Source: a virus. Taken from it: DNA of 25,903 bases. The stretch covers positions 1-25,903 of the IMG/VR virus record IMGVR_UViG_3300032235_000836; one strand, given 5' to 3'. The notes under the pieces are model-generated. The model did not search any database and had not been told where the DNA came from. It saw only the letters and a list, made by a program, of their open reading frames with translations. Position numbers and translations under genes: made by a program. Positions 3,060-21,528 of this stretch are shown here, in pieces (position 1 is the first letter of the stretch; each line of letters opens with the position of its first letter).

Positions 3060-3479
3060 TTATAAATTTATGGTTGTATGTTCTATACGTACTCTTACGC
3101 AGTTTTGAGGTAATCTATTGATGTGTCTATAATTGTTGATGTAACCCATGATATTGGCACTACCGATAGCGTTTGCAGAATGTGTGAACACATCAACTAC
3201 CGGTTGACCGTCCATCCATTGTTCAACTAACCATTTTGCACAATCCATACCGGTTTTTTCGGTAATGTTATTATAATCTAATTTATAGTTATGATAAACA
3301 TTAGTGTGCCATTCTTTCATGGCGGTATCTCCTAAATCGTGGTCTAACGAAATGATATTAATATTCTCCAATCCGTTGTACATTACGGTACTAACAAATT
3401 GTTCATAATTTCTAACAACGGTCCACCCATCTTCAATAGGTGTTCTAATGTCATCTAAATAAATTCTAATCTTTGACAT
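3060..3479 (-). CDS. Cyclic-phosphate-processing receiver-like (cREC) domain protein
   Basis: This 139-residue protein has a receiver-like fold signature: IYLDDIRTP with Asp9-Asp10 at the end of the first strand, WTVVRNYEQF, IISLDHDLGD with Asp46-His47-Asp48, TGMDCAKWLVEQ, and a late VFTHSANAIGSANI with His100 and Asn103. This pattern (LDDxRxP, SLDHDLG, HSANPxG) is that of the cREC family, which is common in phages. The family has been proposed from comparative genomics to act on cyclic phosphate ends such as those of RNA; the activity is a prediction for the family, not something visible here. It differs from signalling receivers because the DHD and HSxN motifs replace the usual phospho-acceptor arrangement. 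The ATG at 3479 is preceded by AATTTATA with no Shine-Dalgarno. It lies between the SGNH hydrolase gene and an unknown gene with gaps of 1-2 bases. Confidence 0.78.
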   Translation of the reverse strand: MSKIRIYLDDIRTPIEDGWTVVRNYEQFVSTVMYNGLENINIISLDHDLGDTAMKEWHTNVYHNYKLDYNNITEKTGMDCAKWLVEQWMDGQPVVDVFTHSANAIGSANIMGYINNYRHINRLPQNCVRVRIEHTTINL

Positions 3480-3480
3480 A

Positions 3481-4062
3481 TTATAAATTTTTTAACACCC
3501 AACTTGAGAACTTTTTATGTCCTGAGGATTTAAGATGAATACCGTCACCTGAATCTTGATATGTTACCGTGGTATCCATGGGTATGATTTTACATCCCAA
3601 TAATCTTTCTTGCATTTTATTTTGTAATTTAACATACCTATCACGACACACTTTAGTTACATTGTCTGTGTATACGGTTTTTTTAATAACTTTATTTGGG
3701 TCATATCCAACAATCACAATAACTTCCATTTCATATAGGTTACCTAAGTTAACCATTGATTGTAAATTATTAATTGTTGTTGATTCTTTGGTACTAGCGA
3801 AAGAATCATTAATACCTCCGTATATGATTAATGTATTATGGTGAGGACCATTTTCCAAATAATTTTGTAAAGTTTTTAACATCCAATCGGTTCTTTTACC
3901 ACCTTTTGATATGTTAACATAACCCATACCCATACCTTTTGCTACGGTATGTTGCCAACCATTTGAATAACAGGTTAGACTATCTCCTATAAACAAGATT
4001 TTAACATCCTTCCTTGAAGGAATGAATAAAAATAAAAAAAGTGATATTAATAGTGTTTTCAT
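3481..4062 (-). CDS. Exported SGNH/GDSL-family hydrolase
   Basis: This 193-residue protein begins with a short hydrophobic signal-like segment (MKTLLISLFLFLFIPS) and then carries the SGNH blocks in order: FIGDSL with nucleophile Ser28 (block I), the Gly54-Gly55 turn (block II), YGGINDS with Asn85 and Asp86 (block III), and GDGIHLKSSGH with Asp173 and His176 (block V, DxxH). The complete catalytic set predicts an active ester hydrolase. Family members act on acyl esters, including acetyl groups of cell-wall or capsule sugars; the substrate here is unknown. The signal segment suggests action in the periplasm or at the surface. The gene follows a lipoprotein gene on the same strand, with a terminator hairpin between them, and is followed after 1 base by the cREC gene. 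Confidence 0.82.
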   Translation of the reverse strand: MKTLLISLFLFLFIPSRKDVKILFIGDSLTCYSNGWQHTVAKGMGMGYVNISKGGKRTDWMLKTLQNYLENGPHHNTLIIYGGINDSFASTKESTTINNLQSMVNLGNLYEMEVIVIVGYDPNKVIKKTVYTDNVTKVCRDRYVKLQNKMQERLLGCKIIPMDTTVTYQDSGDGIHLKSSGHKKFSSWVLKNL

Positions 4063-4447: not shown

Positions 4448-6469
4448 TTATTTATCACTATTTTTAGAAATTTTTAATTCATTTTCTTCAAAAATTATTG
4501 AAATTTCTTCGTTTTCTACTATGTTACCCATTAAAATTTGTTCACTCAAGAAATCTTCACAAAGATTTTGAATGATACGTTCCAAAGGACGAGCACCGTA
4601 TTCTTCTTGTGTGTTAAGGCTAAAGATTTGGTCAATAACACTTTGTTCGAATGTGATTTTATAACTCTTTTCAATTAATCTCGAGTTCAATTTACCTAAT
4701 TCTACATTAACAATACGTTTTAATGTTTCATCATTCAATGAATTGAATAAAACTATGTCATCAATACGATTTAAGAACTCTGGATTGAATTGTTGTTTCA
4801 ATGATTTTTGAATCATGGACTTTTTAACCTCATATTTTTGGGTTTCTGATGATGAGGTGGTAAAACCAACACCTCCACCAAACTCTGAGACCTTTTTAGC
4901 TCCAACATTTGAAGTCATAATGATTAAACAGTTGGTAAAATTAACTTTTCGACCAAAAGAATCGGTTAAATGACCTTCATCTAAGATTTGAAGTAAGATA
5001 TTGAACACATCTTTATGTGCTTTCTCAATTTCATCAAATAAAATCACAGAAAATGGGTTATTTTTCACTTTTTCAGTCAATTGACCTCCTTCATCATGTC
5101 CAATATATCCCGGAGGAGAACCAATTAAACGAGATACGTTGTGACGTTCCATATATTCACTCATATCGACACGAATAATCTTCTCTGGGTCACCGAAAAG
5201 GTTCTCAGCTAAGGATTTAGCTAGGAAGGTCTTTCCAACCCCCGTAGAACCCAAGAAAATGAATGAACCGATAGGTTTATTTGCATCTTTAATACCAACA
5301 CGATTACGTCTAATGGCTTTAGAGATTGAACTGATAGCCTCATCTTGACCAATAACCTTAGCAGATAAGGTTTTCTCCATATTTAATAGATTTACCGTCT
5401 CTTTTGTGTCCAATTTAGTGATTGGGACACCGGTCATTTCAGAAACAACAGAATAAACATCATCGATACTAACAGGAATTTTATTATCCTTTTGACTATC
5501 CATCCATTTTTTCTTTTCTTCATCTAACTTGAGATTAACTTTACGTTCTTCATCACGAAGTTTTGCAGCTTGTTCGTAATTTTGTTTTTTAACTACGTCA
5601 AGTTTTTTCTCTTTAATATCCTCAGCTTCTTTCTTTAATTTTTCAATAACTTCAGGAATTTGACTTGTAACTCGTTTTTCCGCACCTAATTCATCAAGAA
5701 CGTCAATAGCTTTATCAGGAAATTGTCTATCGGTGATATATCGGCCGGCCAATTTAACAACAGTTTCAATAACATTATCTTCATAATTTACTTTATGAAA
5801 ATCTTGATAAGAATTTTGTAGGTTTTTAAGAATCGCAACCGTTTCTACTTGAGTTGGTTCTTTTAATATTACTTTTTGGAACCTACGAGATAATGCACCA
5901 TCTTTTTCGATGTGTTTTTTGTATTCATCAAATGTTGTTGCCCCAATACATTGCATTTCACCACGAGCAAGTGCTGGTTTCATGATATTCGCCGCATCCA
6001 TTGCTCCACTTGCGTTACCGGCACCAACCATAGTATGTAATTCGTCAATAAAGACAATAACGTTAGGTGCATCTTGTAATTCGGCAAGAATTGCTTTGAT
6101 TCTTTCCTCAAATTGTCCACGATATTTTGTACCGGCAACCAATGAAGTTAAATCCAATGACATAATACGTTTATCTAACAATACTGTAGGACATTCACCC
6201 TTTTGAATCATTAATGCCAATTTTTCAACAATTGCGGTTTTACCCACACCGGCGTCACCAACAATTACCGCATTGTTTTTCTTTTTACGTGATAGAATTT
6301 GTGCAATTCGTTTCACTTCTTTGTCCCTACCAATAATAGGGTCAATCTTACCTTCCTCAGCAAGTTTAATTAAATCTCGTGAGAAATTATCTAAAATTGG
6401 TGTGTTTGAACCCTTTTTGGTTCTCTTTGGATTGATGGTTGGACCATCTTCGAAGAATTCTACAGACAT
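4448..6469 (-). CDS. ClpC-like AAA+ unfoldase lacking the N-terminal domain
   Basis: This 673-residue protein has two AAA+ modules. D1 has Walker A GDAGVGKT (71-78), Walker B VIVFIDE (137-143) and an arginine pair in SRRF (195-197). D2 has Walker A GSTGVGKT (407-414), Walker B VILFDE (475-480) and sensor-2 GARPLER (625-631). The linker between them carries a UVR-like stretch (QNYEQAAKLRDEE, about 296-308), as in ClpC, instead of the long ClpB coiled coil. The usual 140-residue Clp N-terminal domain is absent: D1 begins by residue 30. After the D2 core, a VGF tripeptide (534-536) sits where ClpC has its ClpP-docking loop. This suggests an unfoldase feeding a ClpP peptidase, probably the host's, rather than a ClpB disaggregase. 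It is divergent from hsp20 across a repeat-rich regulatory region with a host-type promoter. Confidence 0.9.
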   Translation of the reverse strand: MSVEFFEDGPTINPKRTKKGSNTPILDNFSRDLIKLAEEGKIDPIIGRDKEVKRIAQILSRKKKNNAVIVGDAGVGKTAIVEKLALMIQKGECPTVLLDKRIMSLDLTSLVAGTKYRGQFEERIKAILAELQDAPNVIVFIDELHTMVGAGNASGAMDAANIMKPALARGEMQCIGATTFDEYKKHIEKDGALSRRFQKVILKEPTQVETVAILKNLQNSYQDFHKVNYEDNVIETVVKLAGRYITDRQFPDKAIDVLDELGAEKRVTSQIPEVIEKLKKEAEDIKEKKLDVVKKQNYEQAAKLRDEERKVNLKLDEEKKKWMDSQKDNKIPVSIDDVYSVVSEMTGVPITKLDTKETVNLLNMEKTLSAKVIGQDEAISSISKAIRRNRVGIKDANKPIGSFIFLGSTGVGKTFLAKSLAENLFGDPEKIIRVDMSEYMERHNVSRLIGSPPGYIGHDEGGQLTEKVKNNPFSVILFDEIEKAHKDVFNILLQILDEGHLTDSFGRKVNFTNCLIIMTSNVGAKKVSEFGGGVGFTTSSSETQKYEVKKSMIQKSLKQQFNPEFLNRIDDIVLFNSLNDETLKRIVNVELGKLNSRLIEKSYKITFEQSVIDQIFSLNTQEEYGARPLERIIQNLCEDFLSEQILMGNIVENEEISIIFEENELKISKNSDK

Positions 6470-6640: not shown

Positions 6641-7006
6641 ATGATGACATTATTTAAAGACCCGTTGTTTCAATCATTGGATAGTGTATTTGAAACACCA
6701 AAACAAATTAATCAACCTAAAATAACAAGAACGGATGAGAATTATCAGGTACACATTGCGGTACCCGGTTTAACCAAAGATGATTTAACTATCTCAACCA
6801 AAGAGGGGTATTTATACATTTCTTATCTTAAAGAAGAAACCGACGATAAAACATATTCGTTTACAAGTTCATTTAAGAAAACATACCACATACCTGATGA
6901 TGTAGATGAAAAACAAATTATTGGTAGTGTTGAGAATGGTGTGTTGGGAATTATTCTCCCAAAAAGTAAAAAGAAGTCGTCAGAACGATTTATTTCACTT
7001 ACTTAA
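6641..7006 (+). CDS. hsp20: Small heat-shock protein (Hsp20, alpha-crystallin domain)
   Basis: This 121-residue protein has the alpha-crystallin core: YQVHIAVPGLTKDDL (35-49) with the conserved VPGL, LYISYLKEE, and the end motif ENGVLGIILPK (98-108, matching GxLxxxLPK). A C-terminal ISL (118-120) fits the IxI/V docking motif used for oligomer assembly. Hsp20 proteins hold unfolding proteins in a refoldable state without ATP and hand them to ATP-driven chaperones. They are a recurrent gene in T4-like phages. The start could be either of two adjacent ATGs (6641 or 6644). A perfect terminator hairpin follows directly. The divergent Clp unfoldase gene suggests a joint response to protein stress late in infection, or help with virion protein quality control. 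Confidence 0.9.
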   Translation: MMTLFKDPLFQSLDSVFETPKQINQPKITRTDENYQVHIAVPGLTKDDLTISTKEGYLYISYLKEETDDKTYSFTSSFKKTYHIPDDVDEKQIIGSVENGVLGIILPKSKKKSSERFISLT

Positions 7007-12664: not shown

Positions 12665-14449
12665 ATGAATAGTAAATTAGAACAACTAAAAGAATATGCT
12701 CGTATCATTAAAGATACGCCATATGCGTTAAGAACGTATCTACAAACATACGATAACACGCAAAAGAAATACGTTCCAATGAACCTATTTCCTGACCAAT
12801 TACAGTTAATTCAGGATTACGAAGATTACAACGAAAACATCACAAAGAAATATCGTCAAGCCGGTGTTACAACCGTAACTGCCGCTTGGTTATCAAAGAA
12901 ATTACAACTAGCCAAACCTGAGAATCCTGAAAGGGTTTTGATTATTGCCAATAAGAAGGATACTGCCGTGGAAATGGCAAATAAGATTAGAAACTTCTTA
13001 GACCAATGGCCGGAATGGTTAAATGTTGGGTTCTCACCTGATAAAAACTCTGAAAGTAGATTTAGGTTAAATAACGGGTCTGAAGTTAAGGCGGTCGCAA
13101 CATCTGCGGATGCACTTCGTGGTTTTACACCTACCGTACTTGTATTTGACGAGGCTGCATATATTGAAGCCGGTGAAGACTTTTGGGCAGCATCTATGGC
13201 GTCCCTATCTACGGGTGGTAAGATTATTCTTATCTCAACACCAAATGGTTATGACCCAATTTACTATGGTGTATATGACCAAGCAATTCGTGGAATAAAT
13301 GACTTTCATATTACTGATTTAAGATGGTTTAAAGACCCTCGTTATACCAAAGACTTACGATGGATTAAATGTCAAGATATATGTCATTACATGTTAAACA
13401 GAGAACAATATGATGACAATGAGGTTGTTCTTTATGAGTTTGATATGTCTAATTATCGAGAATTGGAAGAACAAGGTTACAAACCGTATTCATCTTGGTT
13501 TGAATCCATGTCTAAAAAGTTTAAATACGATAGACGTAAGATATCACAAGAATTAGAGTGTGACTTCTTAGGGTCAGGAGATGGTGTAATACCGGGATTT
13601 GTTCAAGAGAATATTACCAAGAACATGATTCGTGTTCCTATTGAGAAATACATGCAAGCCACTCTATGGCAATGGAAGGAACCAATTGAGGGTCATCGTT
13701 ATATTATGGGTGTCGATGTTAGTAGAGGTGATAGTGAAGACTTTTCCGCAATTAATATTGTCGATTTTGATGATAGAGAACAAGTACTTGAATACATTGG
13801 TAAAATACCACCAGATGACTTGGCCCAAATTGCCTATAAGTGGGGTGTAATATATGGTAATGCATTTATTGTAATTGATATCACCGGTGGTATGGGTGTT
13901 GCAACATCGAGAAAACTACAAGAATTAAATTATAAAAATTTATATATTGACGGTGTAAACACTCAAAACATTTGGGAATATAACGCGAAGGCCATGGAAA
14001 AAATACCCGGTCTTAATTTTAACAATAAAAGAACGCAGATTGTTGCAGCATTTGAAGAACAGTTAAGAAAAGGTTTTCAAGTTAGGTCAAGTAGACTATT
14101 AAATGAACTTAATACGTTTGTTTATATGAACGGAAGACCTGACCACATGAAAGGTGCTCACGATGATGCGATTATGAGTATGTCGATGGCGTTATACGCG
14201 GGAGATTTATGTTTTAATCAATTACAAAAAACTGAATCAGTTAATAGAGCAATGATTGAATCATGGACAATGTCTGAAAGAACATATGAACCACAAAAAT
14301 CTTTTTATTCTTATGGTGGGTCATTTGACCAAATAGGTTCTATGGGTATGGATGGTAGTAATTCAATGTATGGGGGTAATACTAATCAACAAGTTGGTAG
14401 AGAAGCATATATGGAATACTCATGGTTATTTAATGGAAGAAAAAAATAA
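12665..14449 (+). CDS. gp17: Terminase large subunit, T4 gp17-like
   Basis: This 594-residue DNA-packaging motor combines an ATPase and a nuclease. ATPase part: a Gln motif near FPDQLQLIQ (42-50); the Walker A position reads KYRQAGVTT (62-70), which lacks the usual GK[ST] lysine; Walker B VLVFDE (158-163); coupling motif ISTPNG (190-195). Nuclease part: MGVDVSRGDSEDF with Asp351, FIVIDITGG with Asp405, and GAHDDAIM with Asp500-Asp501. T4 gp17 is about the same size and works docked on the portal, cutting concatemeric DNA and pumping it into the prohead. The C-terminal 80 residues are Gly/Ser/Met/Tyr-rich (YGGSFDQIGSMGMDG) and look disordered. The start is fixed by the box and terminator just upstream. 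The portal gene follows behind its own late-type box. Confidence 0.95.
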   Translation: MNSKLEQLKEYARIIKDTPYALRTYLQTYDNTQKKYVPMNLFPDQLQLIQDYEDYNENITKKYRQAGVTTVTAAWLSKKLQLAKPENPERVLIIANKKDTAVEMANKIRNFLDQWPEWLNVGFSPDKNSESRFRLNNGSEVKAVATSADALRGFTPTVLVFDEAAYIEAGEDFWAASMASLSTGGKIILISTPNGYDPIYYGVYDQAIRGINDFHITDLRWFKDPRYTKDLRWIKCQDICHYMLNREQYDDNEVVLYEFDMSNYRELEEQGYKPYSSWFESMSKKFKYDRRKISQELECDFLGSGDGVIPGFVQENITKNMIRVPIEKYMQATLWQWKEPIEGHRYIMGVDVSRGDSEDFSAINIVDFDDREQVLEYIGKIPPDDLAQIAYKWGVIYGNAFIVIDITGGMGVATSRKLQELNYKNLYIDGVNTQNIWEYNAKAMEKIPGLNFNNKRTQIVAAFEEQLRKGFQVRSSRLLNELNTFVYMNGRPDHMKGAHDDAIMSMSMALYAGDLCFNQLQKTESVNRAMIESWTMSERTYEPQKSFYSYGGSFDQIGSMGMDGSNSMYGGNTNQQVGREAYMEYSWLFNGRKK

Positions 14450-14502: not shown

Positions 14503-16317
14503 ATGGCAGAACAGAATTTTACAGTTTTTCAGAAATTGACCAAGATGTTTGGATATCCGGGGAAAACAAGACCCGACCAAGTACCATCGTTTAGTTTCTC
14601 AAAAGACGAATTATTAAAGACCGATAGTAGAGAAGAATACGAAAAGGCGTTATTACAAGCCCAACAAAGTCAGTACATTGCAGATAAATGGGCTAAACTT
14701 GACCAATCATTATATAACCAATCGGTTTATTACGAACCAAATAGATTGGCAGCATATTATGATTATGAATCTATGGAATTTACTCCGGAGATTTCCGCAG
14801 CTTTAGATATCTATGCTGAAGAATCAACCACAATGTCTGAGAAGGGTGAAATATTAACAATATTTTCTGAATCAACAAGAGTAAAGAATATCCTTGATGA
14901 CTTATTCAAAAACGTATTAGATGTTAACACCAACTTACAAATGTGGACAAGAGGTCTATGTAAGTATGGGGATAACTTTGTATACTTAAAAATTGACCCT
15001 GAAAAGGGTATCATTGGGTGTCAACAATTACCAAACATTGAAATTGAAAGATTGGAAGGTGCATCAAGTAAAACTGCGGGACAAGCTAGAGATGTTAAAA
15101 TGCCGTCACGTGAATTGAGATTCCATTGGAAGAATAAAGATATGGAATTCCAAGCTTGGGAAGTTGCACACTTTAGAATCTTAGGTGACGATAGAAAATT
15201 ACCTTATGGTACTTCTATGTTAGATAAGATTAGACGTATTTGGAAACAATTACTTCTTGCTGAAGATGCGATGTTAATTTATAGAACATCAAGAGCACCT
15301 GAAAGACGTATCTTTAAAATATTTGTGGGTAACATGGATGATAAGGATATTGAGGCGTATGTACAACGTGTGGCAAGTAAATTCAAAAGAGACCAAATAT
15401 CCGACCCACGTAATGGTCAGGTAGATATGAGATATAATCAAATGTCAGTAGACCAAGATTATTTTATCCCTGTACGTGACCCTGCAGCTCCAAGTCCAAT
15501 CGATACATTACCCGGAGCAACAAACTTAGGTGAAATTGCCGATATTGAATATATTCAAAAGAAACTACTTGCTGCTTTACGTATACCAAAAGCTTTCTTA
15601 GGTTTTGAAGAGGTTGTTGGTGAAGGTAAGAGTTTAGCATTAATGGATATTCGTTTTGCTCGTACAATTAACAGAATTCAAAAATCAGTTATTCAAGAGT
15701 TAAATAAAATAGCATTAGTTCACTTGTATCTATTAGGTTTAGAGGATGAATTAAATAACTTTACGTTAGGTTTAACTAATCCATCAGCACAATCTGATTT
15801 ATTACGTATTGAACAATGGAAAGAAAAGGTTACTCTTTATAAGGATGCAACATCTGACCAATCTCAAATGGGTATTTTACCGGTGTCTCATACATGGGCT
15901 AAGAAAAATATTCTTGGTATGAGTGATGCTGAAGTATTACTTGATTTACAACAACAACGTCTTGAAAGAGCGGTTGGTTTCGAATTAATGAATACGAGTC
16001 AGTTAATCATTAAACGTTCAGGTATCTTCGACAATGTTGATGCCAAGTATGGTATCCCTGAGGAAGAAAGAGAAAAGGCTGAAGCTGCCGCAGGTGGTGG
16101 TGAAGCTGCTGCCGGTGGTGGAATGGATATGGGTGGTGGAGCACCTGCCGAAGCACCTGCTGCGGAACCATTAAGTGAATCTACTTCAAGAAAATCAAAA
16201 ATATTAGGTATGTTAGGTGAGGAAAAAGAAGATTTTAATATCTTATTTGATATGAATAAAGCACAACAGAATATTTATGAAATAGAAACTAAAATAACAG
16301 ACATATTAAACGACTAA
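14503..16317 (+). CDS. gp20: Portal protein, T4 gp20-like
   Basis: This 604-residue protein matches the T4 gp20 portal family throughout: RLAAYYDYESMEFTPEISAA (81-100) with LDIYAEE following, MWTRGLCKYGDNFVYLKI (147-164), YRTSRAPERRIFKIFVGN (260-277), the stem region YIQKKLLAALRIPKAFLGFE, and IRFARTINRIQKSVIQEL further on. The portal forms the dodecameric ring at one vertex, through which gp17 packages DNA and to which the neck binds. A Gly/Ala-rich stretch (AAAGGGEAAAGGGMDMGGGA, about 528-547) joins the conserved body to a helical C-terminus ending NIYEIETKITDILND; such a linker is not part of T4 gp20. The next gene begins 2 bases after the stop. Confidence 0.95.
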   Translation: MAEQNFTVFQKLTKMFGYPGKTRPDQVPSFSFSKDELLKTDSREEYEKALLQAQQSQYIADKWAKLDQSLYNQSVYYEPNRLAAYYDYESMEFTPEISAALDIYAEESTTMSEKGEILTIFSESTRVKNILDDLFKNVLDVNTNLQMWTRGLCKYGDNFVYLKIDPEKGIIGCQQLPNIEIERLEGASSKTAGQARDVKMPSRELRFHWKNKDMEFQAWEVAHFRILGDDRKLPYGTSMLDKIRRIWKQLLLAEDAMLIYRTSRAPERRIFKIFVGNMDDKDIEAYVQRVASKFKRDQISDPRNGQVDMRYNQMSVDQDYFIPVRDPAAPSPIDTLPGATNLGEIADIEYIQKKLLAALRIPKAFLGFEEVVGEGKSLALMDIRFARTINRIQKSVIQELNKIALVHLYLLGLEDELNNFTLGLTNPSAQSDLLRIEQWKEKVTLYKDATSDQSQMGILPVSHTWAKKNILGMSDAEVLLDLQQQRLERAVGFELMNTSQLIIKRSGIFDNVDAKYGIPEEEREKAEAAAGGGEAAAGGGMDMGGGAPAEAPAAEPLSESTSRKSKILGMLGEEKEDFNILFDMNKAQQNIYEIETKITDILND

Positions 16318-16319
16318 AA

Positions 16320-17057
16320 ATGAACAAATTTGGAATATTAAAAACAAAGATATTAAAGAAACTAACTGAATCTTATTCAAACAAGAATAAAGGTGAAGTT
16401 AAAGATATCTTAAATACAATTAAAGAAAACAAAGATTTCAAAGAAATGTATTTGTTTTATGAAGAAATCGAAAACAAATACTTCGATGATAAAGAAATTG
16501 CTAAACTGTATGTAGAAGAAATTCAATCGGTCTTAAAAGACAAGTCAGATAAAATCGCAAGTTTCACAAAAAATTTAAATACAAAGTTAAAAGACATAGA
16601 AATTAACGAAAACGAATTATATTCAAACTTAGACTTATTAGTTCAAGAAGAAAATTTAAGTAATGTTGACAAAAAAATTATTGCAAAGAAAAAATTAGTA
16701 GAACATTTAACAACAAAAAAAGAAATCGTTAAAAAAGAAGAAACACAATTAGTGGAAAATGAAAATCTTCTATATGCAGTATTAGCAAACAATTTTAATG
16801 TATTATATAATAATTCATTAAATGAATCACAGAAAAAAGAATTACAGGGTATTTTATCTTTAACGGATGAAGACCTTGAAGTTAAAATAAGTGATTTAAA
16901 AGAATCTATTTTAGGTCAAGTAGGTAGTATCCTGAGTGAATCTAAAGATAATGATTTAACCGGTAAATTAACCAAAGTAAAAGACGAGGTTAATGAAATG
17001 AAACCATCGAAATTTAATTATTACAGATTGGTACAATTAAAAAATGGTCTTGTTTAA
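16320..17057 (+). CDS. Helical prohead-region protein, 245 aa
   Basis: The protein begins MNKFGILKTKILKKLTESYS and is mostly Lys/Glu/Asn-rich helix with coiled-coil character. It ends in the more distinctive MKPSKFNYYRLVQLKNGLV. It sits between portal and protease, where T4 has the small prohead core genes 67 and 68, and starts 2 bases after the portal stop, so it is cotranscribed with the portal. The position and helical make-up suggest a core or portal-associated assembly protein. The length is larger than T4 gp67 or gp68, and I see no direct sequence match, so the name is left open. The stop codon lies in the loop of a bidirectional terminator. Confidence 0.75.
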   Translation: MNKFGILKTKILKKLTESYSNKNKGEVKDILNTIKENKDFKEMYLFYEEIENKYFDDKEIAKLYVEEIQSVLKDKSDKIASFTKNLNTKLKDIEINENELYSNLDLLVQEENLSNVDKKIIAKKKLVEHLTTKKEIVKKEETQLVENENLLYAVLANNFNVLYNNSLNESQKKELQGILSLTDEDLEVKISDLKESILGQVGSILSESKDNDLTGKLTKVKDEVNEMKPSKFNYYRLVQLKNGLV

Positions 17058-17074
17058 TCAAGACCATTTTTTTT
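17041..17074. terminator. Bidirectional 12-bp terminator with both stop codons in its loop region
   Basis: AAAATGGTCTTG (17041-17052) pairs perfectly with CAAGACCATTTT (17059-17070) around the loop TTTAAT, with T-runs on both strands. The stop of the + strand gene (17055-17057) and the stop of the oppositely oriented bS21 gene (17054-17056) overlap in the loop, so each gene's end codes for half the hairpin. Confidence 0.9.
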
Positions 17075-17242
17075 CTGTAGATAAACAGCTTTCAATTTCT
17101 GTTTTCTCTTAGTAACTGAGGGTTTTGTAAACTCTTGTCTTTCTCTTAATTTTTGAACAAGCTTTGTTTTTAAAACTTTACTCTTAAAAGTTCTTAACGC
17201 ACTCTCAATACTTTTTTCTTTACTTAAATCAATAATTAACAT
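17054..17242 (-). CDS. rpsU: Ribosomal protein bS21
   Basis: This 62-residue, highly basic protein aligns end to end with bacterial S21: MLIIDLSKEKSIESALRTFK, then a basic helix (KSKVLKTKLVQKLRERQEF), then TKPSVTKRKQKLKAVYLQKK. The MLII start, the RxFK..V helix, RxxQ/HFxKPSVxxR and KxKAxY are hallmarks of the family. bS21 sits on the small-subunit platform beside the 3' end of 16S rRNA. In Bacteroidota, bS21 with bS6 and bS18 is known to help sequester the anti-Shine-Dalgarno sequence; Tyr54, in a position implicated in that contact, is present here. Phage copies of bS21 are known in several marine and large phages. The gene is opposite to the surrounding head genes and has a host-type promoter overlapped by a late-type box, so it may be made both early and late. 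Confidence 0.92.
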   Translation of the reverse strand: MLIIDLSKEKSIESALRTFKSKVLKTKLVQKLRERQEFTKPSVTKRKQKLKAVYLQKKNGLD

Positions 17243-17262
17243 ATGAAAATTAGTTTATATTA

Positions 17263-17274
17263 CAAATATAAATA
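17263..17274 (-). promoter_or_regulatory. Overlapping host-type and late-type promoter boxes of rpsU
   Basis: Read leftward, TATTTATA (17274-17267) overlaps TATATTTG (17270-17263) by four bases. The second fits the Bacteroidota -7 consensus and lies 20 bases before the rpsU ATG. The first is the late-type 8-mer, without the 5' G. Either alone would be plausible. Confidence 0.5.
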
Positions 17275-17808: not shown

Positions 17809-18492
17809 ATGAAGATTTTAGGTCCGAACGAAACAGGAAAAGGTATTCTTATTGAATACGATGCTGGTCATGTATCTCCTGACGATAATAAAAAAATTAT
17901 ATCAGAGATGAAGGATATGGACTTTTCAGAAGACCTTATCCTTTATGCTGTTTTACAAAAATACGACACACCAAATAAAAACGGGAGAATCTATCCTGAA
18001 ATGCTTCTTAAAAGAGAAGTAGAAAAATATCAAACACTTATTAAAAAAGGTGGAGCTCTTAATGAGTTAAACCACCCATCATCATCTCTTATCGATTTAG
18101 ATAGAGTATCACATTCAATTCTTGAAACATGGTGGGACGGAAAAATATTAATGGGTAAAATAAAATTATTTACTTCACCAGGTTGGAAGAAGATGGGTAT
18201 TGTTTCTACTAAAGGTGACCAAGCCGCAATGTTAATCATGAATGGTGCAACTTTAGGTATATCATCACGTGGTGTTGGTTCATTAAAAAGTGAAAGAGGT
18301 CAAAATATAGTTCAAGAAGATTTTGAATTAGTATGTTTTGATTTAGTTTCTTCACCATCTACACCGGGTGCGTATGTATTTAATGACCCGGCAGATAGAG
18401 ACCAATATCAAGAGTCAATACAAGAGAAACCTGAACTTAATGACAGAATGAAAAAATTAATGGGTGGTTTAGACAAATTTTTATCTAAATAA
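17809..18492 (+). CDS. gp21: Prohead maturation protease, T4 gp21-like
   Basis: This 227-residue protein has the herpesvirus/T4-type prohead protease signature: YDTPNKNGRIYPEMLLKREV (52-71), GGALNELNHPSSS with catalytic His89, a core strand with TWWDGKILMGKIKLF, NGATLGISSRGVGSL with the nucleophile at Ser152 or Ser153, and FELVCFDLVSSPSTPGAYV (172-190). T4 gp21 is activated inside the prohead, then cuts the core, gp23 and itself after (I/L)xE sites so that DNA can enter. The size is very close to T4 gp21. The C-terminal 35 residues (NDRMKKLMGGLDKFLSK at the end) are helical and may be removed during activation. The gene has its own late-type box, and the scaffold gene follows with another. 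Confidence 0.94.
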   Translation: MKILGPNETGKGILIEYDAGHVSPDDNKKIISEMKDMDFSEDLILYAVLQKYDTPNKNGRIYPEMLLKREVEKYQTLIKKGGALNELNHPSSSLIDLDRVSHSILETWWDGKILMGKIKLFTSPGWKKMGIVSTKGDQAAMLIMNGATLGISSRGVGSLKSERGQNIVQEDFELVCFDLVSSPSTPGAYVFNDPADRDQYQESIQEKPELNDRMKKLMGGLDKFLSK

Positions 18493-19797: not shown

Positions 19798-21528
19798 ATG
19801 GGAGCATTATTAGAATCAGGTATGGTTGGTAACATCGGTCTTAAGCACCTTCGTGTTATCAAAGAAGATACCATCAAAAAATGGGATGATTTAGGCTTTT
19901 TAGAAGGTCTTAACGGTCACCAAAGAGATAACATCGCGCAATTATATGAAAACCAAGCGTCTTACTTAATCAACGAAGCAGCAGTATCTGACGCTTCAGG
20001 TTCATTCGAGACAGTGGTATTCCCTATCATCCGTCGTGTATTCTCTAAATTATTAGCGAACGATATCGTTTCAGTTCAAGCTATGAACTTACCTATCGGT
20101 AAATTATTCTATTTCATTCCTAAAATTCAGGAAAGAAATGCAGGAGCACACTATTCTCCATACGGTATCCCTGGTGGAGCTGGTGGAACATCTGCTTCAA
20201 CTGGTTACACAGGAACTAATCTTTATGACCGTTTCTATGAAACTTCAGATGCTGCTGATTCAGGATTGTTCGATTACTCAAAAGGTGATTATTCAACAAT
20301 TTCTTTAACAGGAACATCAATCGTTACTTTCGCTTCAGGTGTTGAAAGTAGCCCTGTAACTCTTGCAACTGGTGATACAGCTTCAAGTGTAATTGTTAAA
20401 TTAACAGGTTTCTCTAGATTAGGACAAGGTAAATTAGCTGGTCCCGATGGAAACGAAATGGATACTGAAGAATTCTTAGCTTCTTTGGCTATCTCTTCTG
20501 CACAAGTTCAATCAGGTGCTGCTTTACCATTCAACGTGGTAACTCAAAAATATGGTAAGGGTATCGTTGCTTACGGACAAAAATCTGCAGGTACAAATGG
20601 TAATTTATACCAAGACATCTGTGATGAGGCTGGTACAATCTACTTACAAGTTGATTTACAAACTTATTCAGCTACTGCAGGTTTCAGTGACCACACAGTT
20701 GCTGGTTCAACTTTAGTTGGTTCTGACTTTGTTGCAACTTATCGTCAATACGCTTCTTTAGAATTTGAAGATGCTATCGGTGAGGTTTCTTTCGATTTAG
20801 ATTCTGTAACAGTTTCTGTAACTGAAAGAAAATTAAGAGCTTCTTGGTCTCCTGAGTTAGCTCAAGACGTTTCAGCGTTCCACAACATTGATGCTGAAGC
20901 AGAATTAACTGCATTGTTATCTGAGCAAATCGCTGCTGAGGTTGACCGTGAAATTTTACGTGATTTACGTAAAGGTGCTGCTTGGACAGCGAAATGGGAT
21001 TACAATGAGTGGAAATACGGTGGAGCATCAGGTGCTACATTACAAGGTTACACTCAAAAAGACTGGAATCAAACTTTAATCACTAAAGTTAACCAAATTT
21101 CAGCTCAAATCCACAAGACTACTTTGAGAGGTGGTGCTAACTGGATTGTTATTTCTTCAGAAGTTTCTGCAGTATTTGATGATTTAGAGTACTTCCACGT
21201 TTCAAACGCAGGTCCTGAGCAAGACTCATACAACATGGGTATTGAAAAAGTTGGTACATTAGCAGGTCGTTACCAAGTATTCCGTGACCCTTACTTCCCA
21301 GCAGGAAAAATCTTGATTGGACACAAAGGTAAGTCATTATTGGATGCAGGTTACATCTACGCACCATACGTACCATTACAATTAACTCCAACAATGTACA
21401 ATCCATTTAACTTCACACCTATCAAAGGTATCATGACTCGTTATGCGAAGAAAATGGTTAACAACCGTTACTTTGGTGTAATTAATGTAAGTGGTTTACA
21501 AACATTCTCTATCGATACTTTACGTTAA
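19798..21528 (+). CDS. gp23: Major capsid protein, T4 gp23-like
   Basis: This 576-residue protein matches the gp23 family: a helical N-terminal arm with NIAQLYENQASYLINEAA, then FPIIRRVFSKLLANDIVSVQ and AMNLPIGKLFYF; the E-loop and insertion region (about 110-320); KLRASWSPELAQDVSAFHNI; and LLSEQIAAEVDREILRDLR. The end is YQVFRDPYFPAGKILIGHKG, then YAPYVPLQLTPTMYNPFNFT, then RYAKKMVNNRYFGVINV. A protease site of the T4 (I/L)xE type is visible as INE/A at residues 58-61, close to the T4 cut after Glu65. Cutting there would remove a 60-residue arm. The insertion domain is Gly/Ser/Thr-rich. The leader before the ATG is A-rich with no Shine-Dalgarno and no late box. A strong terminator follows. 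Confidence 0.97.
   Translation: MGALLESGMVGNIGLKHLRVIKEDTIKKWDDLGFLEGLNGHQRDNIAQLYENQASYLINEAAVSDASGSFETVVFPIIRRVFSKLLANDIVSVQAMNLPIGKLFYFIPKIQERNAGAHYSPYGIPGGAGGTSASTGYTGTNLYDRFYETSDAADSGLFDYSKGDYSTISLTGTSIVTFASGVESSPVTLATGDTASSVIVKLTGFSRLGQGKLAGPDGNEMDTEEFLASLAISSAQVQSGAALPFNVVTQKYGKGIVAYGQKSAGTNGNLYQDICDEAGTIYLQVDLQTYSATAGFSDHTVAGSTLVGSDFVATYRQYASLEFEDAIGEVSFDLDSVTVSVTERKLRASWSPELAQDVSAFHNIDAEAELTALLSEQIAAEVDREILRDLRKGAAWTAKWDYNEWKYGGASGATLQGYTQKDWNQTLITKVNQISAQIHKTTLRGGANWIVISSEVSAVFDDLEYFHVSNAGPEQDSYNMGIEKVGTLAGRYQVFRDPYFPAGKILIGHKGKSLLDAGYIYAPYVPLQLTPTMYNPFNFTPIKGIMTRYAKKMVNNRYFGVINVSGLQTFSIDTLR

Follow-up and report, generated by a model that had tools for sequence, protein, structure and literature searches.

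The stretch of DNA analysed here, hereafter called the window, comprises 25.9 kb, comes from an IMG/VR virus record and has a GC content of 32.4%; in it, a gene for ribosomal protein bS21 is placed antisense to a T4-like head module carried on the plus strand, between the hypothetical genes that begin at 16320 and 17348 (Table 1). The product of the latter has a confident predicted fold (pLDDT 90.5) of the order beta-beta-beta-alpha-beta-beta-alpha, and the predicted structures of both bS21 neighbours gave no significant match when compared with the PDB; Rfam returned no matches over the whole window, and no match was obtained among the named phages searched at the DNA level with the bS21 region. 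Elsewhere in the window, a ClpA/ClpB-like AAA+ ATPase is encoded on the minus strand at 4448-6469 (PHROG 'ATP-dependent protease', E 1e-238), and McNutt et al. (PMC9976891) have speculated that in phages of such a type host bS21 could be removed by a protease of the phage. An Hsp20 small heat-shock protein gene lies at 6641-7006, and such genes reportedly often adjoin phage bS21 (PMC9723584). The gene for a protein with a cyclic-phosphate processing receiver domain (3060-3479; PF20274, E 7e-22) adjoins a GDSL lipase-like gene at 3481-4062.

Table 1. Features of the bS21 locus and the surrounding head module, in window coordinates.
Feature	Position	Strand	Remarks
Terminase large subunit (TerL)	12665..14449	+	
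T4-type portal protein (gp20)	14503..16317	+	
Conserved hypothetical protein	16320..17057	+	Predicted all-helical; convergent with bS21
Palindromic hairpin, predicted bidirectional terminator	17039..17072	both	Across both stop codons
bS21 (rpsU-like) gene	17054..17242	-	Tyr54 at codon 54; ORF call, PF01165 match, alignment
Host-type -7 box TATATTTG (TAnnTTTG)	17263..17270	-	21-28 nt upstream of bS21 ATG
Phage late-type box TATTTATA	17267..17274	-	25-32 nt upstream of bS21 ATG; overlaps TATATTTG
Conserved hypothetical protein, 141 aa	17348..17773	+	Divergent from bS21
Prohead protease (Peptidase_S77)	17809..18492	+	
Hypothetical gene	starts 18574	+	Between protease and MCP
Major capsid protein (MCP, Gp23)	19798..21528	+	

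A first-pass annotation of this DNA had proposed that a complete 62-residue bS21, with the key tyrosine at position 54 retained, is encoded opposite to the head genes, and both statements proved correct. The reading frame runs from an ATG to a TAA, encodes 62 aa and matches Pfam Ribosomal_S21 (PF01165) with an E-value of 4e-12 and 46 bits against a curated cut-off of 27, residues 6-54 corresponding to positions 4-52 of the 55 in the profile. The top-scoring solved chains for this protein are bS21 proteins, among them that of F. johnsoniae (7jil_z), whose residues 1-57 align without gaps to residues 1-57 of the window protein and place Tyr54 on Tyr54. The span originally assigned to the feature, 17054-17274, reaches beyond the gene, which covers 17054-17242, as far as the outer limit of the TATTTATA box at 17274. 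With a median dN/dS of 0.11 over 565 pairs of the window clade, bS21 of this clade evolves under purifying selection, and the evidence supports a genuine phage bS21 that is under selection and belongs to the Bacteroidota type.

A scan of viral contigs yielded 80 loci with a bS21 that is 59-97% identical to that of the window; 79 of these have one or both of the window's flanking genes in the corresponding position with bS21 antisense to them, and at the remaining locus no other gene of the module was seen. The relatives with bS21 in IMG/VR carry a TerL that is 57-85% identical to that of the window over the best segments, and they were found on contigs of up to 269-336 kb, the closest of them (L242-L255, G001) on a contig of 269 kb. 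The latter also contains 22 tRNA genes, clustered at 203.7-210.6 kb. A second scan, which started from the MCP, returned relatives both with and without bS21: in L106, L118, L121, L122, L123 and L138 the two flanking genes occur and the interval between them lacks bS21, and none was found elsewhere in the contigs of these sister phages, which are fragments of 8-38 kb. On this evidence, bS21 is dispensable in some relatives. A fixed link between bS21 and a neighbouring gene is ruled out, since both flanking genes also occur without it. The absence from some sister phages could also be taken to mean that bS21 is a recently captured passenger gene without function, but the dN/dS of 0.11, the single phage clade, the fixed locus and the conserved regulatory features speak against this; it is largely refuted by selection and we regard it as scarcely credible.

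Phylogenetic analysis of 39 phage bS21 proteins together with 75 cellular ones unites all phage copies in one clade (support 100/97) which sits among the Bacteroidota proteins and adjoins those of Saprospirales, on an alignment of 64 columns that are too few to settle the placement. The 80 cellular relatives retrieved belong to Bacteroidota with the exception of one probably mis-binned contig, under a search pattern that was biased in that direction. Other traits relevant to the host are the leaders devoid of a Shine-Dalgarno (SD) sequence, the TAnnTTTG boxes and a near cultured head module from Flavobacterium.

Residues were compared across 75 distinct host and 39 phage bS21 sequences, and Tyr54 is invariant in both sets (75/75 and 39/39). 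Hosts and phages also have in common K20, K22, L32, R33, R35, F38, K40, P41, S42, R46, K51 and A52; the pattern used to search for host relatives had fixed I12, A15, L16 and K20, and a reading of these four as host-invariant is therefore partly circular. Within the window clade, K22, R33, R35, K40, P41, S42 and R46 are invariant besides Tyr54, and the window protein displays the features of the type that occludes the anti-SD, namely the aromatic Y54 together with R33, R35, K40, P41, S42, R46, K51 and A52 of the C-terminal half. Tyr54 as a mark of translational redirection is ruled out because it is universal in hosts, and its invariance in hosts and phages alike argues for a preserved host function instead. 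A non-ribosomal use of the protein, for example packaging into the virion or a role as an RNA-binding regulator, has been raised in the case of packaging by Chen et al. (PMC9723584) and would agree with the position of the gene within the head cluster; however, neither a virion nor a regulatory role requires that ribosome-facing residues including Tyr54 be invariant, and such a use seems highly improbable.

The N-terminal helix presents a different picture. R14, R18 and R21 of helix 1, conserved in 97%, 100% and 93% of hosts respectively, are replaced by S, T, Q, N, K or F throughout the window's phage family (S14, T18 and S21 in the window, where the host-type basic residues are thus absent), the window clade has S, E and K in place of K7, G9 and E10, and the mean net charge of residues 11-25 is +3.0 in this clade versus +5.1 in hosts. 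As regards the rRNA-contact residues, whose loss the first-pass annotation had considered damaging to its proposal, the C-terminal rRNA-facing half is intact while R14, R18 and R21 of helix 1 are replaced. Among the Bacteroidota-type bS21 proteins of five other phage records helix 1 varies, and some of them have R18 and R21, so that the loss of these arginines is a trait of the window's phage family and not of phage bS21 generally. Helix 1 has been placed over the mRNA path, and the N-terminal helix of phage bS21 was found to diverge from that of hosts, residue 21 included (PMC9723584). These changes, with the C-terminal half kept, would be compatible with a specialised ribosome, as hypothesised in the first-pass annotation and by Chen et al., in which a swapped-in phage bS21 with an altered N-terminal helix confers a preference for phage over host mRNAs. 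Alternatively, helix 1 may have changed through drift or because the protein competes with host bS21.

The loss of charge in helix 1 can also be read in terms of host shut-off, whereby phage bS21 would displace host bS21 and lower host translation or ribosome assembly, and would not sustain phage translation. In this regard, it has been demonstrated that bS21 of pelagiphage HTVC008M incorporates into E. coli 70S ribosomes and that ribosomes with this heterologous protein make ~5% of the control protein in vitro (Mizuno et al. 2019, PMC6375957). On the other hand, this defect came from a non-cognate host, and the late box, together with the late transcription of bS21 alongside structural and capsid genes in related phages (PMC9723584), would place the protein at the time when the phage needs ribosomes. 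Host shut-off thus appears quite improbable.

The 3' end of bS21 is shared with the convergent gene of the head module, the two gene ends overlapping by 4 nt in the window and by 8 nt in many relatives. The hairpin across both stop codons consists of a 14-bp stem (17039-17052 and 17059-17072) and a loop at 17053-17058; its energy is -18.1 kcal/mol (z -5.7) on one strand and -17.6 kcal/mol (z -6.4) on the other, values that no shuffle equalled, and its sequence encodes NGL near the C-termini of both genes. Among 24 distinct versions, with stem pairs numbered from the loop side, pair 3 is T-A in 20 and A-T in 4, pair 6 is T-A in 19 and C-G in 5, and neither shows a mismatch; each gene contributes one arm, and the compensatory changes are synonymous (Gly GGT/GGA, Asn AAT/AAC). 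The hairpin combines stability, a U-run and maintenance by compensatory change, as expected of an intrinsic terminator, and we infer that it stops transcription; a terminator consensus scanner did not list it, probably because the T-run lies inside the stem.

Every bS21 with a tail of NGL followed by no more than one residue (53 distinct loci) is accompanied by the hairpin, which is missing from 31 of the 35 loci without that tail. In the sister phages L121 and L122, which lack bS21, LKNGL closes the product of the upstream gene and a hairpin stands at its stop codon, and in L118, also without bS21, the gene has a close variant of this end. The simplest account would be that the terminator originally belonged to the head gene and that bS21 reads the other arm, and an adaptation of the NGL tail to the ribosome is rejected as the simplest explanation on the strength of these loci. 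It has been suggested that the clade-wise conserved C-termini of phage bS21 serve ribosome substitution (Chen et al., PMC9723584). As the NGL C-terminus is the hairpin, conservation of the tail need not mean ribosome adaptation, and caution is warranted because conserved bS21 tails in the window clade can be a by-product of the terminator.

Upstream of bS21, the pairing of a host-type with a late-type box that had been described from the window was confirmed in the form of overlapping matches at the level of sequence, as distinct from mapped start sites. Both classes of box are enriched among the 154 regions upstream of genes in the 269-kb relative: TATTTATA is present in 41 of them versus 5.8 expected, and is near chance in the reverse sense (11 versus 6.7 expected), and TATATTTG in 13 versus 1.4 expected. 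The two boxes are distributed differently among phage groups: of 32 distinct bS21 upstreams in the window clade, 24 have the host-type box at a similar distance and 13 the late box, whereas in leaders outside this clade the late box is found in 7/8 and the host-type box in 0/8. In a wider set of 88 genes (53 from the window clade and 35 from elsewhere), the host-type box precedes 31 and 1 of these, respectively, and the late box 19 and 17. Expression of bS21 throughout infection, as had been proposed, is only suggested by this arrangement. A further box, of the GTATTTATA type, stands just upstream of 8350, 12665, 14503, 17809 and 18574 (TerL, portal, protease and other late genes); it corresponds to the T4 late box TATAAATA reverse-complemented, yet lies in the sense direction, and is a candidate late promoter of the window's phage group.

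Translation signals distinguish the phage gene from many of its host counterparts. When strong anti-SD pairing upstream of rpsU is defined as -9 kcal/mol or below, it is found in 30/33 Flavobacteriales (median -18 kcal/mol, with most genes at about -15 to -19 kcal/mol), in 8/14 Bacteroidales and in 0/16 Saprospirales, versus none of 25 distinct bS21 leaders of the window clade; the value for the window itself is +0.8 kcal/mol. In a different phage group with the same bS21 locus (L055, L059-L065), AGGAGG stands just before the bS21 start (-12.2 kcal/mol), and bS21 of this group may still be under SD-dependent control. The claim that the phage has no SD sites and uses A-rich leaders also stands, as GGAGG or AGGAG at -20 to -4 occurs in 0.6% of the genes of the 269-kb relative and the phage leaders are SD-less and A-rich. 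Leaders of Bacteroidota are reportedly likewise SD-less and A-rich, so that hiding of the anti-SD alone cannot tell phage from host mRNAs, and no feature separating the two has been established; the 3-kb host loci contain too large a share of rpsU for their leaders to be compared with those of the phage. Phage mRNA could conceivably be translated preferentially, and the specialised ribosome, which depends on this, is in our view somewhat unlikely.

In F. johnsoniae, the SD of rpsU leads to its preferential translation by ribosomes lacking bS21, and when the C-terminus of bS21 is missing, ribosomes show poor initiation on mRNA without an SD and improved initiation on rpsU (PMC9976891). If the host is one of the Flavobacteriales, phage bS21 should therefore escape the SD-based autoregulation of bS21; with a Saprospirales-type host, in which 0/16 rpsU genes have an SD, this argument fails.

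We propose that phage bS21 is a working paralogue that would enter the host 30S subunit in place of host bS21, and incorporation as such is, in our judgement, quite probable. Its C-terminal half, in which Tyr54 and its neighbours are kept by alignment, would fold the 3' tail of 16S rRNA away, and the ribosomes would stay of the Bacteroidota kind that initiates without SD, as the SD-less and A-rich mRNAs of the phage presumably need. As its message lacks an SD and is preceded by both a host-type and a late-type box, synthesis should be independent of the bS21-free ribosomes that drive rpsU in Flavobacteriales, and as phage bS21 fills the ribosomes the SD-dependent rpsU of such a host would stay repressed, conditional on host order. 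Replacement of the arginines in helix 1 may further influence mRNA binding in a way peculiar to the phage, and the one shared hairpin would punctuate the convergent end with the upstream head gene and fix the last residues of bS21.

The full account, in which phage bS21 replaces the host copy, sustains SD-less initiation and is freed from host autoregulation, strikes us as about evenly balanced between right and wrong. It draws on the family assignment, Tyr54, the selection on the gene, its single phage clade and a locus kept in nearly all relatives, on the contrast in SD between window-clade and Flavobacteriales genes with the SD-less A-rich leaders and genome-wide enrichment of the boxes, and on published work on the F. 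johnsoniae C-terminus (PMC9976891), pelagiphage bS21 incorporation (PMC6375957) and co-transcription with structural genes (PMC9723584). The ~5% activity of E. coli ribosomes with phage bS21 (PMC6375957), however, is not expected from simple replacement, several sister phages have both flanking genes and no bS21 at the locus, and the tree places bS21 beside Saprospirales, where rpsU has no SD, on an alignment that cannot settle host order.

A further step, that the window clade has rewired bS21 out of host control and also out of the ancestral phage control through lack of an SD and a host-type box in place of the late box, leading to early synthesis and a host rpsU locked off, is speculative and on the whole unlikely. 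Without an SD, bS21 of this clade would be translated by bS21-replete ribosomes, and its host-type box, which takes the position of the late box of other phage groups, may allow synthesis to begin early. If true, the phage would take over a one-gene autoregulatory loop by occupying new 30S subunits and hiding the anti-SD. The SD status of host versus phage rpsU predicts that expression of phage bS21 represses host rpsU in Flavobacteriales.

Among known systems, HTVC008M resembles the window in having a phage-borne bS21, with virus-encoded ribosomal protein genes under purifying selection, and differs in that its protein is of the alphaproteobacterial type, in a phage of Pelagibacter, a host that is not an anti-SD-hiding Bacteroidota. 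Among cultured Bacteroidota phages, the nearest head module found belongs to Flavobacterium phage Immuto (MW353176), where TerL, portal, protease and MCP follow one another as in the window at 29-44% identity; its genes are on one strand and no bS21 is annotated in the module. The host bS21 of F. johnsoniae (7JIL) shares with that of the window the family, length class, Tyr54 and C-terminal half; unlike host Bacteroidota proteins, the phage protein lacks the helix-1 arginines, has a tail of NGL(D) and is encoded without a preceding SD. The closest parallel is provided by Chen et al. (2022, ISME Commun, PMC9723584), who described 47 Bacteroidetes phage genomes of clades a-e with a reverse-strand bS21 in the same region (complete genomes 293-331 kb, GC 31-34%), found that position 54 is aromatic in every phage bS21, and proposed that the protein is exchanged into the ribosomes of the host and there benefits the transcripts of the phage. 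As in these phages, the window bS21 is antisense and flanked by two hypothetical genes within the region of TerL, portal, protease and MCP, and the GC content, Tyr54, Bacteroidetes-like bS21, helix-1 divergence and relatives with large contigs agree as well. In conclusion, the observation of a phage bS21 is correct, and the system, the Tyr54 argument and the ribosome-swap hypothesis are already published (PMC9723584); the shared terminator-like hairpin end, the SD-less phage gene as opposed to host rpsU with an SD, and the clade-specific promoter box, which are absent from the text of Chen et al., constitute modest additions to that work.
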